From NCBI RefSeq assembly GCF_026210795.1, contig NC_089451.1:1348001-1412000 (forward strand): a stretch of 64,000 nt of DNA. Direction: 5' to 3'. Positions 19,603-42,822 of the stretch are shown here, in pieces. Each line of letters opens with the position of its first letter. Positions within the stretch are counted from its first letter, which is position 1. Position numbers and translations under genes: made by a program. This stretch comes from Rhizophagus irregularis. Its lineage: Eukaryota; Glomeromycota; Glomeromycetes; Glomerales; Glomeraceae. The notes beneath the pieces are model-generated. The model had not been told where the DNA came from. It searched no databases and worked only from the letters and a program-made list of their open reading frames with translations.

Positions 19603-22600
19603 ATGGGAACTGAATTTAGTAAAACAAATATCCCAGATAGGGATACTGATACAATAAACACCAAAAATTGTTTGTATTGTAATAAACCTTTTGAAGAATT
19701 ATGGTGTAAAAAATGTATTAATTCCTTTGAAAAATCAACAGAAAATGGTGATCAAGAAGCAATGTTTAATTTAGCCAACTGTTATAAGAATGGAAAAGGG
19801 ACAGAAAAGAATTTAATAAAAGCCCTTCATTGGTTTGAAAAAGCAGCAGAAAAAGATCATATTGATGCAATGTTTAATTCAGCTGTATGCTATAGAAATG
19901 GAGAAGGAACGGAAAAGAATTTTGAAAAAGCCTTTCATTGGTATCATAAAGCAGCATAAAAAGTTCATATTGATGCGATGTTTAATTTAGCTGTGTGTTA
20001 TAAAAATGGAGAAGGAACAGAAAAGAATTTTAAAAATACCTTTCATTGGTATCAAGAAGCAGCAGAAAAAGACCATATTGACGCAATGTTTAATTTAGCT
20101 GTATGTTATAAAAATGGAGAAGGAACAGAAAAGAATTTTGAAAAAGCCTTTCATTGGTTTCAAAAAGCAGCAGAAAATGATCATATTGATGCAATGTTTT
20201 ATTTGGCCAATAGTTATTATAATGAAGTAGGAATGGAAAGAAATTTTGAAAAAGCCTTTCATTGGTTTCAAAAAGCAGCAGAAAAAAACCATACCGATGC
20301 AATGTTTAATTTAGCTGTATGTTATAAAAATGGAGAAGGAACAGAAATGAATTTTGAAAAAGCCTTTTATTGGTATCAAAAAGCAGTAGAAACGAATCAT
20401 ATTGATACAATGTTTTATTTGGCCTATAGTTATTATAATGAAGTAGAATCAGAAAAGAATATTGAAAACCCCTTTCATTGGTTTCAAAAAGCAGTAGAAA
20501 AAGAAATGCTACATTTGACCAATAGCTATTATAATGGAGTAGGAACAGAAAAGAATTTTGAAAAAGCTTTTCATTGGTTTCAAAAAGCAGCAGAAAAAAA
20601 CCATACTGATGCAATGTTTAATTTAGCTGTATTTTATAAAAATGGAGAAGGAACAGAAAAGAATTCTAAAAATTCCTTTCATTCGTATCAAGAAGAAGCA
20701 GAAAAAGATAATATTGATGCAATATTTAATTTAGCTGTATGTTATAAAAATGGAGTAGGAACAGAAAAGAATTTTGAAAAAGCCTTTCATTGGTTTCAAA
20801 AAGCAGCAGAAAAAGATCATATTGATGCAATGTTTTATTTGGCCAGCTATTATAATGAAGTAGGAATAGAAAAGAATTTTGAAAAAGCCTTTCATTGGTT
20901 TCAAAAAGCAGCAGAAAAAAACCATACTAATGCAATGTTTAATTTAGCTGTATGTTATAGAAATGGAGAAGGAACAGAAAAGAATCTTGAAAAAGCCTTT
21001 CATTGGTATCAAAAAGCAGCAGTAAAGGATTTTATTGATACAATGTTTTATTTGGCCTATAGTTATTATAATGAAGTAGGAACAGAAAAGAATTTTGAAA
21101 AAGCCTTTCATTGGTTTCAAAAAGCAGCAGAAAAAGATAATACTGGTGCAATGTTTAATTTGATCAATAGCTATTATAATGGAGAAGAAACAGAAAAGAA
21201 TTTTGAAAATACCTTTCATTGGTATCAAGAAGCAGCAGAAAAAGATAATATTAATGCAATGTTTAATTTAGGTGTAGGTTATAAAAATGGAGAAGGAACA
21301 GAAAAGAATTTTGAAAAAGCCTTTCATTGGTTTCAAAAATCAGCAGAAAAAAACGATACTATTGCAATGTTTGTTTTAGCTGAATGTTATAAAAATGGAG
21401 AAGGAATAGAAAAGAATTTTGAAAAAGCCTTTCATTGGTATCAAAAAGCAGTAGAAAAGGTTCATATTGATGCAATGTTTTATTTGGCCCATAGTTATTA
21501 TAAAGAAATAGGAACAGAAAAGAATTTTGAAAAAGCCTTTCATTGGTTTCAAAAAGCAGCAGAAAAAGATCATATTAAAGCAATGTCTAGTTTAGCTATA
21601 TGTTATAAAAATGGAGAAGGAACAGAAAAGAATTGTGAAAAAGCCTTTCATTGGTATCAAAAAGCAGCAGAAAAAGATCATATCAATGCAATGTTTTATT
21701 TGGCCAATATTTATTATAATGGAGAAGGAACAGAAAAGAATTTTGAAAAAACCTTTTATTGGTTTCAAAAAGCAGCAGAAAAAGATCATATTGATGCAAT
21801 GTTTTATTTGGCTATTAGCTACTATAATGAAGTAGGAATAGAAAGAAATTTTGAAAAAGCCTTTTATTGGTCTCAAAAGGCAGCAGAAAAAGATCATATT
21901 GATGCAATGTTTTATTTGGCCAATATTTATTATATTGGAGAAGGAATAGAAAAGAATTTTGAAAAAGTCTTTTATTGGTGTCAAAAAGCAGCAAAAAAAA
22001 ACCATACTAATGCAATGTTTTATTTGGCCAATAGCTATTATATTGGAGAAGGAACAGAAAAGAATATTGAAAAAGCTTTTCATTGGTTTCAAAAAGCAGC
22101 AGAAAAAGATCATATTAAAGCAATGTCTAGTTTAGCTATATGTTATAAAAATGGAGAAGGAACAGAAAAGAATTTTGAAAAAGCCTTTCATTGGCATCAA
22201 AAAGCAGCAGAAAAAGATCATATTGCATCAATGATTAATTTAGTTGTATGTTATAAAAATGGAGAAGGAACAGAAAAGAATTTTGAAAAAGCCTTTCATT
22301 GGATTAAAAAAGCAGCGGAAAAAGATCATATTGATGCAATGTTTAATTTAGCTGTATGTTATAAACATGGAGAAGGAACTGAAAAGAATTTTGAGAAAGC
22401 CTTCCATTGGTATCACAAAGCAGCTGAAAAAAACCATACTGACGCAATGTTTATTTTAGCTGTATGTTATAAAAATGGAATAGGAATAGAAAAGAATTTT
22501 AAAAAAGCCTTTCATTGGTATCAAAAAGCAGCGGAAAAAGATCATATTAATGCAATGTTTTATTTGGCCAATATTTATAAAATTGGAGAAGGAATAGAGA

Positions 22601-25600
22601 AGAATTTTGAAAAAGCCTTTTATTGGTTTCAAAAAGCAGCAGAAAAAAACCATACTGATGCAATGTTTAATTTAGCTGTATGTTATGAAATTAGAAAAGA
22701 AACAGAAAATAATTTTAAAAAAGCCTTTTATTGGTATCAAAAAGCAGCAGAAAAAGATCATATTAATGCAATGTTTTATTTGGCCAATATTTATTATATT
22801 GGAGAAGGAACAGAAAAAAATTTTGAAAAAGCCTTTTATTGGTTTCAAAAAGCAGCAGAAAAAGATCATATTGATGCAATGATTTATTTGGCTGATAGCT
22901 ATTATAATGGAGAAGGAACAGAAAAGAATTTTGAAAAAGCCCTTTATTGGTTTCAAAAAGCAGCAAAAAAAGATCATATTGATGCAATGTTTTATTTGGC
23001 CAATATTTATAAAATTGGAAAAGGAATAGAAAAGAATTTTGAAAAAGCCCTTTATTGGTTTCAAAAAGCAGCAAAAAAAGATCATATTAATGCAATGTTT
23101 TATTTGGCCAATATTTATTATATTGGAGAAGGAACAGAAAAAAATTTTGAAAAAGCCTTTCATTGGTTTCAAAAAGCAGCAAAAAAAGTTCATACTGATG
23201 CAATGTTTAGTTTAGCTGTATGTTATAAAAATGGAGATGGAACAGAAAAGAATTTTGAAAAAGCCTTTTATTGGTTTCAGAAAGCAGCAAAAAAAGATCA
23301 TATTGATGCAATGTTTAATTTAGCTGTATGTTATAGAAATGGACAAGGAACAGAAAAGAATTTTAAAAAAGCCTTTCATTGGTTTCAAAAAGCAGCAAAA
23401 AAAGATCATATTGATGCAATGTTTTATTTGGCCAGTAGCTATTATATTGGAGAAGGAACAGAAAAAAAATTTGAAAAAGCCTTTAATTGGTTTCAAAAAG
23501 CAGCAGAAAAAAACCATACTAATGCAATGTCTAATTTAGCTGTATGTTATATAAATGGAGAAGGAACAGAAAAGAATTTTGAAAAAGCAGCAGATAAAGA
23601 TCATATTAATGCAATGTTTTATTTGGCTGATAGCTATTATATTGGAGAAGGAACAGAAAAGAATTTTGAAAAAGCCATTCATTGGTATCAAAAAGCAGCA
23701 GAAAAAGATCATATTAATGCAATGTTCTATTTGGCCAATATTTATTATACTGGAAAAGAAACAGAAAAGAATTTTGAAAAAGCCTTTCATTGGTTTCAAA
23801 AAGCAGCAAAAAAAGATCATATTGATGCAATGTTTTATTTGGCTGATATTTATTATAATAAAGAAGGAACAGAAAAGAATTTTGAAAAAGCCATTCATTG
23901 GTTCCAAAAAGCAGCAGAAAAAGATCATATTGATTCAATGTTTTATTTGGCCAATATTTATTATAATGGAGAAGGAATAGAAAAGAATTTTGAAAAAGCC
24001 TTTTATTGGTATCAAAAAGCAGCAGAAAAATACCATACTAATCAAACTAATGCAATGTTTAATTTAGCTGTATGCTATAGAAATGGAGAAGGGACAGAAA
24101 AGAATTTTGTAAAAGCCTCTTATTGGTTACAAAAAGCAGCAGAAAAAAATAATATTTATGCAATGTTTAATTTAGCTGTATGTTATAAACATGGAGAAGG
24201 AACGGAAAAGAATCTTGAAAAAGCTTTTTATTGGTATCAAAAAGCAGCAGAAAAAGATCATATTGATGCAATGTTTTCTTTGGCTAATATCTATAAAATT
24301 GGTGAAGGAACAGAAAAGAATTTTGAAAAAGCCTTTTATTGGTTTCAAAAAGCAGCAGGAAGAAACAATACTAATGCAATGTTTAATTTAGCTGTATTTT
24401 ATAAAAATGGAGAAGGAACAGAAAAGAATCTTGAAAAAGCCTTTTATTGGTATCAAAAAACGGCGGAAAAAGATCATATTGATGCAATGTTTAATTTAGC
24501 TGTATGTTATAAAAATGGAGAAGGAACAGAAAAGAATTTTGAAAAATCTTTTCATTGGTTTCAAAAAGCAGCAAAAAAAGATCATATTAATGCAATGTTT
24601 AATTTAGCTGTATGTTATAGAAATGGAGAAGGAACAGAAAAGAATTTTGAAAAAGCCTTTGATTGGTATCAAAAAGCAGCAGAAAAAGATCATATTAATG
24701 CGATGTTTTGTTTGGCCAACATTTATTATATTGGAGAAGAAATAGAAAAGAATTTTGAAAAAGCCTTTCATTGGTATCAAAAAGCAGCAAAAAAAAACCA
24801 TACTAATGCAATGCTTATTTTAGCTGAATGTTATAAAAATGGAGATGGAACAGAAAAGAATTTTGAAAAAGCCTTTCATTGGTATCAAAAAGCAGCAGGA
24901 AAAAACTCTACTGATGCAATGTTTAAATTAGCTAATTGCTATAGAATTGGAGAAGGAACAGAAAAGAATTCTGAAAAAGCCTTTTATTGGTTTCAAAAAG
25001 CAGCAGAAAAAGATCATATCTATGCAATGTATAATTTAGCTACATGTTATTGTAATGAAGAAGGAACAGAAAAGAATTTTGAAAAAGCCTTTGATTGGTA
25101 TCAAAAAGCAGCAGAAAAAGATCATATTGAAGCAATGTTGTTGTTGGCCAATAGCTATTATACTGGAAAAGGGACAGAAAAGAATTTTGAAAAAGCTTTT
25201 CATTGGTGTCAAAAAGCAGCAGAAAAAGATCATATCAATGCATTGTTATTTTTAGCTGAATGTTATAAAAATGGAGTAGGAATAGAAAAGAATTTTGAAA
25301 AAGCTTTTCATTGGTATCAAAAAGCAGCAGAAAAAGATAATAACAATCATGCAATGTTTAATTTAGCTACATGTTATAAAAATGGAGTAGGAATAGAAAT
25401 GAATTTAGAAAAAGCCTTTTATTGGAATCGTAAAGCAGCGGAAAATGGTTATACTGAAGCAATGATTAATTTATCCATATATTATAGAAATGGAGAAGGA
25501 ACAGAAAAGAATTTAGAAAAGGCTTTTTATTGGCATCAAAAAGTAGCTGAAAGTAGTAAAGTGAAATCTGAAAATAAGGCTGAATTATGTAATAAGTGCA

Positions 25601-26924
25601 AACAACCATATTCTGATTATCAATGGTGCCAACAATGTAATACTAGACAATTTCAACAAGATTTTTCAAAGTGGACTAGTAAAAATGAATTTATTGATAA
25701 ATTTATTCAAGAAGCACAACTAAATGCTAAAAATAGTTATGAAATTTTAGAGTGGATACCTCATAATAAATTATTAAATATTAATTATTATGACAAAGGA
25801 GGATTTGGTGAAATTCATAAAGCTACCTGGTCAGATGGTCCTATTTTTACTTGGAATTTTGACAAACAACAATGGAATAGACAAACAAGTTATGAGGTTA
25901 TTCTTAAAACACTTAATAATTCATCAAGTTTAGATAGTAAATTTCTGAATGAGGTATAGTATTTATATTTAATTATTATAAATTTTATTTTCCTTTGCAA
26001 TAATTAAATAATTTTTTATCGCTTATGTAGTGGAAATATCATTATAATTGTCAGAAAAAATCATTTTCAAAATTTATTCAATTCTTTGGAATTACTCAGG
26101 ATCCAAGAAATTCAAATTATATAATAGTAATGAGTTATGCAAAAAAAGGAAGTTTGAGAAACTGTTTATCTGATATAATCAAATTTAAGTGGCAAGAAAA
26201 GCTACAATTATTGAAAAAAATTATATTAGCACTTAAAGTGATCCATGAATCAAATTTAACTCATGGTGATTTTCATGATGGTAATATTTTAATGTCAGAT
26301 AATTATAATGAAATATTTATCATTGATTTAGGGTTATGTAAACCTATAAACAATTCACAAGATTCTGGTAATAATGATAATGAAATTTATGGAGTTTTGC
26401 CTTATATGGCACCTGAAATTTTAAGAAAAAAACCCTATACTCTAGCAAGTGATATTTATAGTTTTTCGATGATAATGTGGGAATTTACATCCGGAATTCA
26501 GCCATTTAAAAATAAAGCACATGACCTTGAACTAAGCTTGAGTATTTGTGAAGGAGAACGTCCTGAAATTATAGAAAGTGCTCCAAAATGTTATATAGAA
26601 TTAATGAAAAAGTGTTGGGATCCAGATCCTTTTAATAGACCAACTATAACAACACTTGAAAATATTATATCTGAATGGATTGAATGTATCAATAAATTTT
26701 ATATAATAAATAGGGATGGAAATTATAGATATGAAGTAATTAATGTTGATAATCAATTAAAAAATATTATGTTTGAATTTGTAGAAGCAAATAAAGCAAG
26801 TACTCCTACTAGTATTATCCAACGTCATCCACAAGCATATTATACAAGTCGCAAACTTACTGAAATTTTAGTCAAAGATAATTCTGAGTGTTTTGAATGT
26901 ATAATTGAAATAATTGAAGATTAA
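19603..26924 (+). CDS. Giant Sel1-repeat protein fused to a TKL-like kinase (in-frame stop near start)
   Basis: Exons 19603-25953 and 26031-26924, phase 0, 77-nt intron. The start MGTEFSKTN is followed by a ribbon (CLYCNKPFEELWCKKC), about 54 Sel1-like repeats of 36 aa (residues about 50-1985), a second ribbon (CNKCKQPYSDYQWCQQC), the linker WTSKNEFIDKFIQEAQ, then the kinase N-lobe (EWIPHNKL, loop KGGFGEIHKATW, VILK lysine) and, in exon 2, FGITQDPRNSNYIIVMSYA, HGDFHDGN, IDLGLCK and MAPEIL. Sel1 repeats form alpha-solenoids that bind partner proteins; kinase fusions of this kind are frequent in this fungal group. A GAA-to-TAA change at 19957 stops the frame after 118 aa; the next Met in frame, at 19978, gives 2289 aa and loses the first ribbon and two repeats. 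HRD is changed to HGD, with the Asp kept. Confidence 0.75.
19750..25557 (+). repeat. Sel1 tandem array, 108-nt unit, about 54 copies
   Basis: Units read (A/I)DAMFNLAVCYKNGEGTEK then NFEKAFHWYQKAAEKDH. Two classes are mixed: one with LAVCYKNG (TTAGCTGTATG) and FNL, the other with LAN.YYNE or LANIYYIG (TTGGCCAAT) and FYL. Identity is very high at DNA level, including synonymous sites. Irregular units: a shortened one near 20500 (EKEMLHLTNSYYNG), one lacking about 10 residues near 23570 (NFEKAADKDHINAMFYLAD), and one with three extra residues near 24035 (YHTNQTNAMFNL). Confidence 0.85.
19957..19959 (+). other. In-frame TAA in the Sel1 gene
   Basis: Between FHWYHKAA and KVHIDAMFNLAV every other unit has GAA (Glu) here; one G-to-T change gives TAA. 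The frame is otherwise unbroken on both sides. Confidence 0.85.
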
Positions 26925-32144: not shown

Positions 32145-32623
32145 TAGTTTTGAATTATATAAATATTTTAAAACAACTTTTTTATTCTTTCTCAACCTTT
32201 TTCTTTGACCGAAATATAATATAGTTTCATGTTGCTGTAGCAAAACCGTTTTTTATTTTTTCAATGTCATTAAATCGATTATATGGTATTCATTTAATAC
32301 TTCTTCCCATGGGTTATCAATTTTTAATTGCTTTTTTTGAGTCCAATTTGGAATTTAATTATTTTCTTTCCTAATTGAATATTAAATACTTAATAACGAA
32401 GAAAAAACAAAATTTAATTAAACTAACTTAAACCTCACGTAATTTTGAAATGTTAAATTGTTATTATTTAAAGTTTAATTAAAAACAACGAAAGTCTTAA
32501 AAATTCTTAAATTGAAATTTACTAAGATTTTCAAAAAACAAAAAGTTTTCCTCGTGTAGCATCACTCAAAGAATTTTTATTTGACATAGTAACATAAATA
32601 AAAATAAAAATAATAACGAGGTA
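32145..32623 (-). pseudogene. Relic of a kinase module exon, uninterrupted copy
   Basis: On the minus strand, 32355-32145 still shows the module order: a trace of FEWIPY..., a degraded N-lobe and a K..LKYL end (AAATATTTTAAAACAAC on the plus strand matches the donor-side codons of live modules). The following 32356-32623 is upstream DNA. The whole block is duplicated at 38433-38646 plus 42210-42351, where a transposon splits it. Confidence 0.55.
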
Positions 32624-38420: not shown

Positions 38421-38648
38421 AACGATTAAATAATACAAATTATATAAATATTTTAAAACAACCTTTTTATTCTCTTTCAACCTTTTTCTTTGACCGAAAA
38501 CGAAAATATAGTATTGTGGACATCCTTTCATGCTGCTGTGGTAAAACCGTTTTTCATTTCTCCCATGGGTTAGAATTTAATATTTCTCCATTATTTCTTT
38601 TTTAACTAAATATTAAATACTCAACAAAAATTTAATTAAACTAATTTA

Positions 38649-38673
38649 TCGCCGTTTTCGAATTACTGTGATC
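38649..38673 (+). repeat. Left TIR of the transposon
   Basis: 25 bp, exact inverted copy of 42183-42207; preceded by the TA target duplication. Confidence 0.85.
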
Positions 38674-38957
38674 GGCAATTTTTTAATTTTAATAAAAAAA
38701 ATTGATTTCCAGAATTTCAAAAAAAAATTGATCACGTTATACATATAAAATTGTGTAAATTTGATCTACGTAGTGTTAAGCCATTATTGTATCACATTCG
38801 TTGTATTTTTTTGCTATTCGCTTCGTGTTTTTACAAGTAACTTAGAGACCGATTTTAACTGATTCCTAACCGGCTCCAACCCTTCTATCCGATTTCAAAA
38901 TATTTACAGACAAAAACCATAATAAATATATTTTTTTTTTGCTAAAAGGCCTCAAAC

Positions 38958-40050
38958 ATGCCTCAAGAATTTAGCGAAGATTTATGCTGGCGTATTATTT
39001 ATCTTCACATTGATAGATTTTCTACTGCAGATATTGCTAATACATTATACATGAGTAAGGGTTTTGTAAATAAGATAATAAGGAGATATAACCGTTGGGC
39101 ATGTGTTAAAAATCCTTTCAAAGGTATTCCTGGTTGTAGAAAACTATTTAGTAGAGCAGATATGGCTGTACTTAGAAATCTTGTAGCAGAAAAAGCAGAC
39201 TGGTATTTGGACGAATTAGTATATGAAATGGAGTGTCTAACTGGAAAAAGAGCATCTATTGCAGCTCTTTGGCATTCACTTCAATACATGGGAATTACTC
39301 GAAAAAAAGTAAGTAATTTATTTATATTATGAATTTTTGAAATAAATATTTATTTTTTATTCAATACAGTTACATAAGGCAGCACTGGAAAGAAATGATA
39401 TTATACGTGCACATTATTTAGGTGTTATTGGTGAACATTACACCCCAAACCAGTTGATTTTCCTTGATGAAAGTGCTAAAGATGAGAGGAGTCTATCAAG
39501 ATTATATGGATATTCTCCTCGCAATATACGCGCACATAAAAAAGTTGTGTTTGTACGAGGAAAAAGATATACAATTTTACCTGCTCTTACATTAGAAGGA
39601 TTTGTTGCTGTTGATATATTTGAAGGAGCATGTGATAGAAAAAGATTTGTTGATTTTGTTCTTGATCAAGTGGTAAATAATAATTATACAAGTTTATTTA
39701 TTTATTTATTTATTTTATATTCTAATTGATAAATTTATCTTTAGGTACCAATAATGAACCCATATCCAGATAATAATAGTGTAATTATTATGGATAATGC
39801 AAAAATACACCATGATGATGAATTAATAGCACTATTAAGAGGATTAGGATGCCATGTTGTTTTTCTTCCACCATATTCACCCGATTTCAATCCTATCGAA
39901 ACTGCATTTTCAACTATCAAATCATGGATCAGGCGTAATCGTGATTTTATGGAAGCTTATAATGATCCTATACATGCATTATTAGTTGCATGTAGTCAAA
40001 TAACGTCTCAAATGGCACAAGCATTTTTTGAAGCATCAATTTATATTTGA
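38958..40050 (+). CDS. Tc1/mariner-type DDE transposase
   Basis: Exons 38958-39308, 39370-39672 and 39745-40050, all phase 0, with introns of 61 and 72 nt; 319 aa. The N-terminal part (MPQEFSEDLCWRIIYLHID, STADIANTLYMSKGFVNKII) is a helix-turn-helix of the transposase type, followed by a second DNA-binding segment up to LHKAALERN. The catalytic core has the expected acidic triad: D in IFLDES (exon 2), D in IIMDNAKIH and E in FNPIETAFSTIKSWIR (exon 3), with the LPPYSPDFNP motif before the last Glu, as in the DDE_3 group of the IS630/Tc1/mariner superfamily. It cuts and rejoins the element ends at TA sites. ATG 38958 opens the HTH in the natural place. All catalytic residues are present, so the enzyme may be active. 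Confidence 0.85.
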
Positions 40051-40177
40051 TAATCAATTAGAATAAAAAAAAATAGAAATATAACCAATTTAGAATAATA
40101 AAATAAAAAACTGGAACAAGAATTTATATTTGAAATACTATCTTTATTATATTATATGATAATCAAAATACATTAAG

Positions 40178-41948
40178 TCAATATTGTTGCGCTGCTTGTT
40201 TAATATTTTTTTGCCATCCAATTTTCACCACGCCTAACTTTTGCAATTGCTCATCTGTTAAATCTTTTATAGCATTAACTGTAATTTCTTCTTCAAGAAA
40301 TGCATCTTCAAATTTAGCATATATATTATTACAATTATATTTCAGGTCTAAGTTATTAAGAAACTCACCAATTGATGGTAATTTGCTTGATGAAGGTAAT
40401 TCCAAATGAGTATTTGTCAGATTTTGATAAACTTGACTTGGTAATTGAATAAAAATAGGAGTAGGCGTATTGGATGTTTGACTATTTTGCATTTGCGTTG
40501 CAGAATTATTTTTATTGATAAATACACTTGATTTCATATCAAATACTGGATAAGATGGAGGAATATCATAGGTTGTTCCTTTGTTTATCTAAACAAAATT
40601 AATAATTAGTAGGTATCATTTTTCATTTGAATTTATAAAAAAGCATACTTTACATACAATTTCACGAGCCCAAAGTTGTAATCTAGAAGGATTAAGCTGC
40701 AAATGCCGACCATCTTGAATAAAACATGGAGTAGAATGTAAATCACATTTATACATTTCAACCAAATCAGCAATGACTTCGGATCTTCTTTTCTCCTCTT
40801 TTGATAAATCATCTTCTCTTAGTGAACGAGATTTCTTTTTCTTTTTGGTTTGTATTTCAATTTCTTCAGAAGATGATCTAATATTATCATCAGAATGCTA
40901 AAAAATTATAAATGTTAAATATTTTTGCCTATTATCTCGCATTATACATAAAATACTTTACCTTTTTATGTTTCCTATTTTTTTTTTCTGTCACGTTATT
41001 CTTCACAATTACTACCACTATCACTGACATTTTTTTCCCAGTTAATGTTACCTTTTGATATTCACTAATAAATTCCTGAAAATCCAATTTATCTTCAAGT
41101 GTATTTGATGGTCTACATGCATTTACAGCTTTATACGAAATAGTATAACTGTATTTTGATTTTGTTTCTTTTTCTAGAATTTTTTTAGTTGCTAAATTTA
41201 TTTTTTCTGTAAAATTTTTATAACTAGCAGGCCGAATAGTTAGAGTTTTTGCTGTAGGGATTTTTATATTATTATTTTTTACAACTAATTGTATTTTTAT
41301 TTCCTCAATAATATCAACTTCTTCATATTTTTTATTGTCATTATCACTTTCTTCATCATAATCTCCATTATCATCGTCTTCTTCATAGTTTTCATCATTA
41401 ACATCACTATCTTTGTCATAATAATCATCATCTTTATTATTAAAATCTTTATCATCGTCTCCTTCATCTTCTATTTCATTATCATTGTCTTTTTCGTTTT
41501 CTTTCTTATTATTATAACTTCCCACTTTTCTTTTACTATTTTCTGTTGGCAAATCATCTATTGAAATGATTTCTTCATTGTTTATCTGAGCTCTCCTATT
41601 GCTTTTTTTGTTACTTTTTAGTTGAGATTTTTTATCACTAGTTTTTAATCGTTGAAGTTTACTATTACAAGCACTGCAAGTAGTATAGGAAAAGTTTTTT
41701 TCAAAATTATTATTGTAACCAAATTTAGTATTTATATCTAGTAAAAAATTATTGAGTTTTGGAAAAATTTGGTTTGTAGTATAAGCACGTTGATATATTT
41801 GTTGTCCATGCAGTGGTTTTTTAACTCTTGATATTTTATCTTTCTGACACTTGCACGGATTTTCTTGTGGAAGTTTGAAACAACGCAAACACTTTTGACA
41901 TATATAACAAATACCGGGAAGGTAATTGCAAGTTAAATTTTCCGCCAT
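40178..41948 (-). CDS. Cargo gene of the transposon: Cys-rich / acidic / SAM-domain protein
   Basis: Exons 41948-40962, 40897-40649 and 40588-40178, phase 0, introns 64 and 60 nt; 548 aa. The N-terminus is cysteine-rich (CNYLPGICYICQKCLRCFKL then CKCQKDK, and later CSACNSKL), which suggests zinc binding. Residues about 140-220 are a long acidic stretch of D, E and N. A basic patch follows in exon 2 (TKKKKKSRSLREDD), then MYKCDLHSTPCFIQ and LNPSRLQLWAREIV. The last about 70 residues (PSIGEFLNNLDLKY ... EEEITVNAIKDLTDEQLQ, LGVVKIGWQKNI) fit a SAM domain, an interaction module that often polymerises. I do not know its function; as it lies between the TIRs it travels with the transposase and could help integration or regulation, or be a captured host gene. 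Confidence 0.75.
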
Positions 41949-42182
41949 TTAAATAACTCTAAACGCGAAAAATTACTTCAACTTCTTTTTCGCGTAAGTA
42001 TTATATAATCTACTTACTAATTACTATATTAAGTAAATGACCAGTTTTATAAAAAATTGACCAATAATTATTTAGAAAATTTTACAAGGAATATTTGCAT
42101 GTGTTTTGGCTTATTTTTAGGTTGTTTTCGGTTATTTTCAGTGTTTTCAGTATTTTTTAATTATAAATGATCGACATCACCT

Positions 42183-42207
42183 GATCACAGTAATTCGAAA
42201 ACGGCGA
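42183..42207 (-). repeat. Right TIR of the transposon
   Basis: 25 bp, exact inverted copy of 38649-38673; followed by TA. Confidence 0.85.
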
Positions 42208-42351
42208 TAAACCTCACGTAATTTGAAATGGTAATTAAAGTTTAATTAAAATAACGAAATTCTAAAATTCTTGAGATTTCCAAAAAAGTTTTCCTTGTGT
42301 AGAATTTTTATTCGATGTAACGTAAATAAAAATAAAAATAATAACGAGGTA

Positions 42352-42822
42352 AAAAAAAAATATTTTTTTTTTGATTAAACTATCGGATAACAGATTTGTA
42401 AATACAGCCTTGTAAAATCAGAATTATTGGGATAATATTTATATATTAATGATTATCAATTTATCATTAAGAATGTACTTCATTTGTATTCAACTTTAAA
42501 AAACTTTGATATATTTACCTTTAGATTTAATCCTGCAGAGTCTCTAGACGTTTAAAAGAAAGTTCTATCACGTACTCGGCTAGTGCCATTTCCAAGGCAC
42601 CAGATGTTTCAAAAATAGCTATACTACAAGCCACCGCCGTTTCTTAACGCTGGTTAATATCTGTGATGTAATTGCTAAAAACATAATACCTAAGTTGAAA
42701 GTTCTTTTTTTAACTATTGAGTTTTGTTACAACAGAGTTAATATATTAACTTTATACACTATACATATGAAGCATAATATATTGTACTATATATATTTAA
42801 AATCCTGTTCAATTACAGACCA
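42352..42822. other. Intergenic, no gene seen
   Basis: AT-rich. The short less AT-rich patch 42540-42660 has no recognisable content. From about 42715 the sequence resembles the 3' flank of gene A. Confidence 0.4.

Follow-up and report, generated by a model that had tools for sequence, protein, structure and literature searches.

Does the second gene of a Tc1/mariner-type transposon in the genome of Rhizophagus irregularis belong to the element, or is it only carried along by it? The question is raised by L001, an element at positions 38649..42207 of the window (the whole stretch analysed here, 64,000 nt of contig C23; the genome comprises 146.7 Mb in 32 contigs). Tc1/mariner elements are described, in the portions of the published account available to us, as short and with a single transposase open reading frame (ORF) (PMC7325037). 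L001 departs from the usual Tc1 plan of about 1.3 kb and one ORF, as it measures 3,559 bp and holds two genes, a transposase gene and a gene that we call the companion. The terminal inverted repeats (TIRs), at 38649..38673 on the transposase side (forward strand) and at 42183..42207 on the companion side (reverse strand), match in 25 of 25 bp, as the first-pass annotation had stated, and in 29 bp if the flanking TTTA/TAAA is included. The TA duplications it had reported are likewise present (38647..38648 and 42208..42209) and are backed by a paralogous empty site.

The transposase gene, described earlier as an apparently intact DDE transposase in three parts, proved to be just that. Its three exons on the forward strand (38958..39308, with the ATG at 38958; 39370..39672; 39745..40050, including the stop) are separated by two introns and encode 319 aa matching Pfam DDE_3 above the cut-off (E 7.8e-28). 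The catalytic residues D150, in exon 2, and D235 and E270, in exon 3, form a DD34E triad with 34 residues separating the last two, the spacing of Tc1/mariner transposases. Exon 1 encodes a helix-turn-helix (HTH)-like N-terminal region, for which the Pfam matches stay below the cut-off (HTH_23, 13.8 bits versus 24.6; HTH_SB, 12.7 bits versus 43).

The companion lies on the reverse strand, convergent with the transposase gene. It has three exons, 40962..41948 (ATG at 41948), 40658..40897 and 40178..40588 (including the stop). The convergent second gene of the first-pass annotation thus stands, but its length of 548 aa is corrected to 545 aa by a second donor site 9 nt upstream, which the aligned homologues support (...WAREI-INKG...). 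The Cys-rich start, acidic middle and SAM end that had been noticed are all present. Exon 1 encodes the Cys-rich domain (about residues 1-103, 41640..41948, reverse strand, with C14, C17, C20, C23, C32, C34, C91 and C94), the acidic stretch and a PB1-fold domain; exon 2 encodes a basic stretch, KKKKKSR, a C-x2-H-x3-C core and a conserved WA-E. The SAM domain, at residues 481-544 (40184..40375, reverse strand; 484-547 in the 548-aa numbering), matched Pfam SAM_1 with E 3.7e-7 and 30.9 bits against a cut-off of 23 in the 548-aa model, and SAM_1 was also found at E<=1 in six of eight divergent companions. The N-terminal cysteines are conserved among homologues, and this block has a predicted local distance difference test (pLDDT) score of 69-92 in the predicted model of one of them. 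Residues 215-313 by alignment (41010..41306, reverse strand) are predicted to adopt the PB1, or ubiquitin-like beta-grasp, fold, a call made on the predicted models of the homologues P0009 and P0167 and not on the window protein itself. No PB1 sequence profile appeared among the Pfam matches listed for companions; acidic and basic positions of the region are conserved in companions and are candidates for an OPCA motif. Foldseek searches with a companion model matched superantigen-like proteins, which have the beta-grasp fold in common, and a companion profile gave only weak matches to sequences of solved structures, three of them within the SAM region. That no folds were listed for the Cys-rich domain or the core is no sign that these folds are new.

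When the joined flanks of L001 were searched against the genome, they matched, besides their own locus, a second, diverged copy of the flanking repeat that lies 6 kb upstream within the window (32164..32623, forward strand, junction near 32421). The alignment crosses the insertion junction, with the undisrupted sequence CTAACTTAAACCTCACG in the empty copy versus CTAATTTA[element]TAAACCTCACG in the filled one; identity is 67% over 462 columns, of which 122 are gap columns, and the two are closely similar near the junction. Around the duplicated TA itself, the empty site reads CTAACTTAAACCTC and the filled site CTAATTTA[element]TAAACCTC. Because the paralogous site is undisrupted, L001 was inserted in a single event, as a whole TIR-to-TIR unit at one TA. 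The source of the empty site is a local diverged direct repeat, its two copies (32164-32623 and 38449-42409) about 6 kb apart.

Three more full-length copies, L002 to L004, were found at 98-99% identity. Since L002 (C28) and L003 (C7), which lie in different flanks, align over 3,554 bp with 2 gap columns and without a single substitution, transposition of the L001 subfamily is recent. With the same splice coordinates, both frames are open in L001 and L002, the companion is broken in L003 and L004, and the transposase is also broken in L004. The target is TTAA, with only the TA duplicated: all 21 elements in which both ends were identified are flanked by TTA...TAA, against a background in which TTAA makes up 0.128 of the TA sites in the window. 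Such strictness in 21 of 21 elements is unusual for the Tc1/mariner type, and a 4-bp TTAA duplication is the hallmark of piggyBac. Membership in piggyBac was considered and rejected: the insertions lie in TTAA, yet the flanks indicate that TA alone is duplicated.

We then asked whether both genes occur together elsewhere in the genome. Loci were clustered by hand, with transposase queries from two subfamilies and companion queries from two subfamilies and a distant relative, which gave 67 transposase loci, 67 companion loci and 15 loci of the distant kind, the companion rows L057, L062 and L063 included. These counts are lower bounds from the best candidates scored, and elements split by insertions may have been counted double (C19:3146835/3149206 both belong to L040, and C29:703501/706573 probably also form one element). 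A companion was found within 6 kb at 53 of the 67 clade transposase loci. It was convergent in 52 of these 53, the sole exception being 5.4 kb away, and the gap between the genes was 49-152 bp in 31. Among transposase clusters of at least 850 bp, 33 of 36 were linked to a companion. As a control, a DDE_3 family search gave 151 matches, of which 150 were placed (the best 150 of 365 candidates scored); 48 of the loci listed fell in the clade and 102 outside it, many of the latter consisting of one open frame about 330-366 aa long. A companion lay within 6 kb of 42 of the 48 clade loci (41 before the last companion query was added) versus 1 of the 102 others, and that one, 3.6 kb from another element's companion, is on the same strand. 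Companion loci together with 6 kb on either side take up at most 0.73% of the genome. We also read 29 loci of the family; both genes were present in all 21 with two identified ends, and eight without two visible ends (L042, L049, L050, L051, L053, L057, L063 and L064) were left uncounted. The suggestion that this would be a distinct two-gene transposon family if other copies carried the second gene is borne out by these figures.

A second question of the first-pass annotation, whether copies with the TIR always contain both genes, has a divided answer. The genome-wide search for the TIR (up to 3 mismatches) returned 73 matches, 37 forward and 36 reverse, with none for a reversed-order control pattern. 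Pairs resembling miniature inverted-repeat transposable elements (MITEs) without either gene exist, as do one-gene truncations (L042, L050 and L051); none of the 29 loci read combined both TIRs with a transposase while lacking the companion. Two sets of loci weigh against a two-gene lineage. Fourteen of the 67 transposase loci have no companion within 6 kb, 11 of them spanning less than 850 bp; most of the 14 were counted without reading their sequence. The other three are L042, which is 97.5% identical to L039 over 1,477 bp and ends after the transposase, C18:2954002, with several stops, and C6:477461, also with stops. Conversely, for 15 of the 67 companion loci no transposase was listed in the surrounding 6 kb, and the transposase side is missing from L050 and L051. 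In the latter (L051 2040-3625, C30:551539-553124) a companion of 485 aa by the splice model is open, without a transposase side or recognised TIRs; it is a relic or, possibly, a domesticated copy.

The TIRs (TCGC..TTTTC...) differ by subfamily, about ten variants being present in the genome. We distinguished subfamilies A (L001-L004), B (L039, L040, L048), C (L041, L043, L046), D (L044, L045, L047) and E (L054-L056), with L058-L062 as single members. A subterminal TCGATCA near 35 bp is exact at one or both ends in members of A, C and D, except L046; B, E and the single members lack it near their ends, and it was not used. Transposase and companion trees were built for 21 of 26 loci, L042, L049, L050, L051 and L053 being excluded because coverage was low or one gene was missing. 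Patristic distances in the two trees were strongly correlated (Pearson r 0.957, Spearman 0.825); none of 9,999 permutations reached this r, the maximum being 0.623, and with 12 representatives only, r was 0.931 (0 of 9,999 permutations). The trees have 11 of 18 splits in common, including A, A+B, C, D, C+D, E, E+L057 and L058-L061. Ratios of nonsynonymous to synonymous substitution (dN/dS), obtained from Nei-Gojobori counts and rough because several pairs have a dS close to 1 or higher, were determined for eight pairs between subfamilies (L001/L039, L001/L041, L001/L044, L041/L044, L039/L041, L059/L061, L054/L057 and L059/L062). They were 0.16-0.25 for the transposase in all eight and 0.355-0.446 for the companion in seven, with 0.735 in L054/L057. 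Within subfamily B, L039/L040 gave 0.35 and 0.38, respectively, and close copies 0.40-1.26 for the transposase and 0.61-1.29 for the companion, the value of 1.29 coming from L001/L004 with its broken L004. As judged by these sequence comparisons, purifying selection has acted on the companion between subfamilies, and both genes stayed paired and co-diversified across subfamilies in the R. irregularis genome.

Named homologues of the companion, from searches that each scored about 8,000 candidates, came from R. irregularis, R. clarus, R. diaphanus, Glomus cerebriforme and Dentiscutata erythropus (Diversisporales), and no named basidiomycete homologue was among those candidates. Transposase homologues, the best 120 of 998, also include Acaulospora, Ambispora, Cetraspora and Gigaspora, and those listed comprise basidiomycete sequences (about 33-43% identical) as well as one row each under the names Actinia and Salix. 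Basidiomycete Tc1-like DD34E transposases (P0106, P0107 and P0110) have the same catalytic motifs, at 35-41% aligned identity. Two consecutive locus tags, OCT59_020065 for a transposase (P0069) and OCT59_020066 for a companion (P0021), point to one annotated pair. A more distant protein, P0046, has the companion core in common (hhalign probability 90) and no precomputed Pfam domain. Loci of its kind are multi-copy (e.g. C31:1364743-1370280, C9:58470-59782 and C21:1728365-1730178, of which only the C21 copy adjoins a listed transposase); one of the 15 is 390 bp from, and convergent with, a clade transposase fragment, and these proteins may represent a second, more distant two-gene group. Viral and prokaryotic origins of the companion were rejected, as none of 40 pattern matches in viral contigs and none of 270 in genome contigs were confirmed.

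With moderate confidence, we assign L001, in which both frames are open, to an old Tc1/mariner lineage of Glomeromycotina that is built from two components and of which it is a young member; the companion would be a self-assembling accessory or regulatory factor. This protein is probably a functional component of the transposon and not a captured passenger; as its gene behaves like one of the element's core genes, the earlier label of cargo is a misnomer. It may be a nuclear protein whose zinc-binding-like N-terminus and C..H...C core contact DNA, transposase or chromatin, while its PB1-fold and SAM domains would multimerise it. Once multimerised, it could organise complexes of transposase and element ends, or control expression of the transposase and silencing. 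Among these roles that of a cofactor in transposition or assembly appears most likely, ahead of anti-silencing and, lastly, repression, and the first two are possible because precedents exist in mudrB, MutB, VANC and the 57kD protein of TBE.

According to the parts of the sources available, such precedents resemble L001 to different degrees. The TBE elements of Oxytricha also combine a Tc1/mariner DDE transposase with extra genes, one of them reversed, and include a faster-evolving zinc-finger protein, the 57kD protein of function not known, all three ORFs being reported under purifying selection (PMC4724952). Compared by description only, they differ in being ciliate elements with an ANT target-site duplication (TSD), telomere-like TIRs and three ORFs, in carrying a zinc finger and a kinase instead of PB1 and SAM domains, and in that the reversed ORF is the 22kD one (PMC4724952). 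Tec of Euplotes is another multi-ORF Tc1/mariner element (Tec and TBE have three ORFs, one in the complement), but it is also from a ciliate and its second ORF is a site-specific recombinase (PMC7325037). MuDR (mudrA/mudrB) and Mutyl (MutB) are two-gene cut-and-paste elements like L001. The function of mudrB is not known, although it is apparently needed for integration, and MutB is reported to have a DNA-binding role; the paper gives its orientation as the same in the text but as antisense in a table (PMC6446971). Unlike L001, both belong to the Mutator superfamily, with TSDs of 9-10 bp, and their second proteins are set beside the companion by description. VANDAL/Hiun elements, also of the Mutator superfamily, encode the accessory protein VANC, which counters silencing and is likened to the companion by description (PMC6446971).

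A more demanding version, which we put forward tentatively, is an obligate two-protein system, in which a PB1-SAM companion polymerising on the ends or with the transposase would be a required subunit or a targeting and anti-silencing scaffold retained since early Glomeromycotina. It is also conceivable, if somewhat unlikely, that the companion suppresses silencing or another host defence, like VANC in role, and keeps the element expressed without a direct part in cleavage or joining. Its faster evolution relative to the transposase would fit an arms race, its presence in all 21 two-ended elements agrees, recently expanded TcMar elements of R. irregularis are said to comprise many copies with low CG methylation (PMC8647823), and VANC offers a precedent (PMC6446971, seen in part). 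However, no sequence link to a known suppressor turned up, VANC itself being compared by role only, the long acidic and low-confidence stretches also account for the faster evolution, and the PB1/SAM and zinc-like make-up fits a transposition complex equally. Less probable still is a repressor or copy-number regulator, with the predicted convergent transcripts adding antisense control of the transposase: the strict convergence, the short gaps at 31 of 53 linked loci and the PB1 and SAM domains, known for oligomerisation, would suit it, but a repressor has no obvious need to be retained in every element. That the companion is a captured host gene without function for the element is very improbable. 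Host signalling proteins often contain SAM and PB1 domains, and the 15 companion loci apart from any listed transposase could be read in this way; against it stand the congruent deep trees, the purifying selection between subfamilies, the constant convergent position and the fact that the named homologues, among about 8,000 candidates scored per search, are Glomeromycotina proteins of the companion type. A recent capture, one of the options of the first-pass annotation, is now unlikely because the two trees are congruent. Finally, the idea that L001 is really two mobile elements side by side, or one nested in another, can be dismissed, for although internal insertions occur and L040, L047 and L048 exceed the other members in length, the empty site refutes it at L001, the layout recurs in all 21 two-ended elements examined and two copies are free of substitutions in different flanks.

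Some other features came to light. Eighteen opposite-facing TIR pairs spanning 341-394 bp are MITE-like, with related ends and too short for either gene (e.g. C2:1913708-1914084, C13:4364940-4365290 and C1:4297700-4298091), and 15 of them have the TIR variant TTGCTGTTTTCTAATTACTGTGATC. L052, of 4.5 kb and with related TIRs, was rejected as another autonomous form, since its ORFs look by eye like a hAT transposase; it appears to be a hAT-like gene nested inside a MITE-like element (L052 811-5303, C2:3353310-3357802). Elsewhere in the window, 19978-25959 holds a 1,993-aa open frame in which Sel1-like repeats lead into the beginning of a kinase-like domain, and further kinase-like ORFs lie nearby, all judged by eye.

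Multi-gene Tc1/mariner elements are already known in ciliates, so the kind itself is not new; in the literature searched, we found no description of this two-gene family or of a fungal lineage with a PB1-SAM companion. An unrelated second protein retained through deep divergence provides a natural experiment on what a transposase needs in each host, and if the two-protein system is obligate, this would be a Tc1/mariner lineage whose transposase alone is insufficient. For R. irregularis, a fungus with few genetic tools, a TTAA-targeting Tc1-like element with recent copies is now available. A multi-copy set of hypothetical proteins annotated as 'SAM domain-containing' in arbuscular mycorrhizal fungi gains a name and a likely context, and could be masked as transposon genes.
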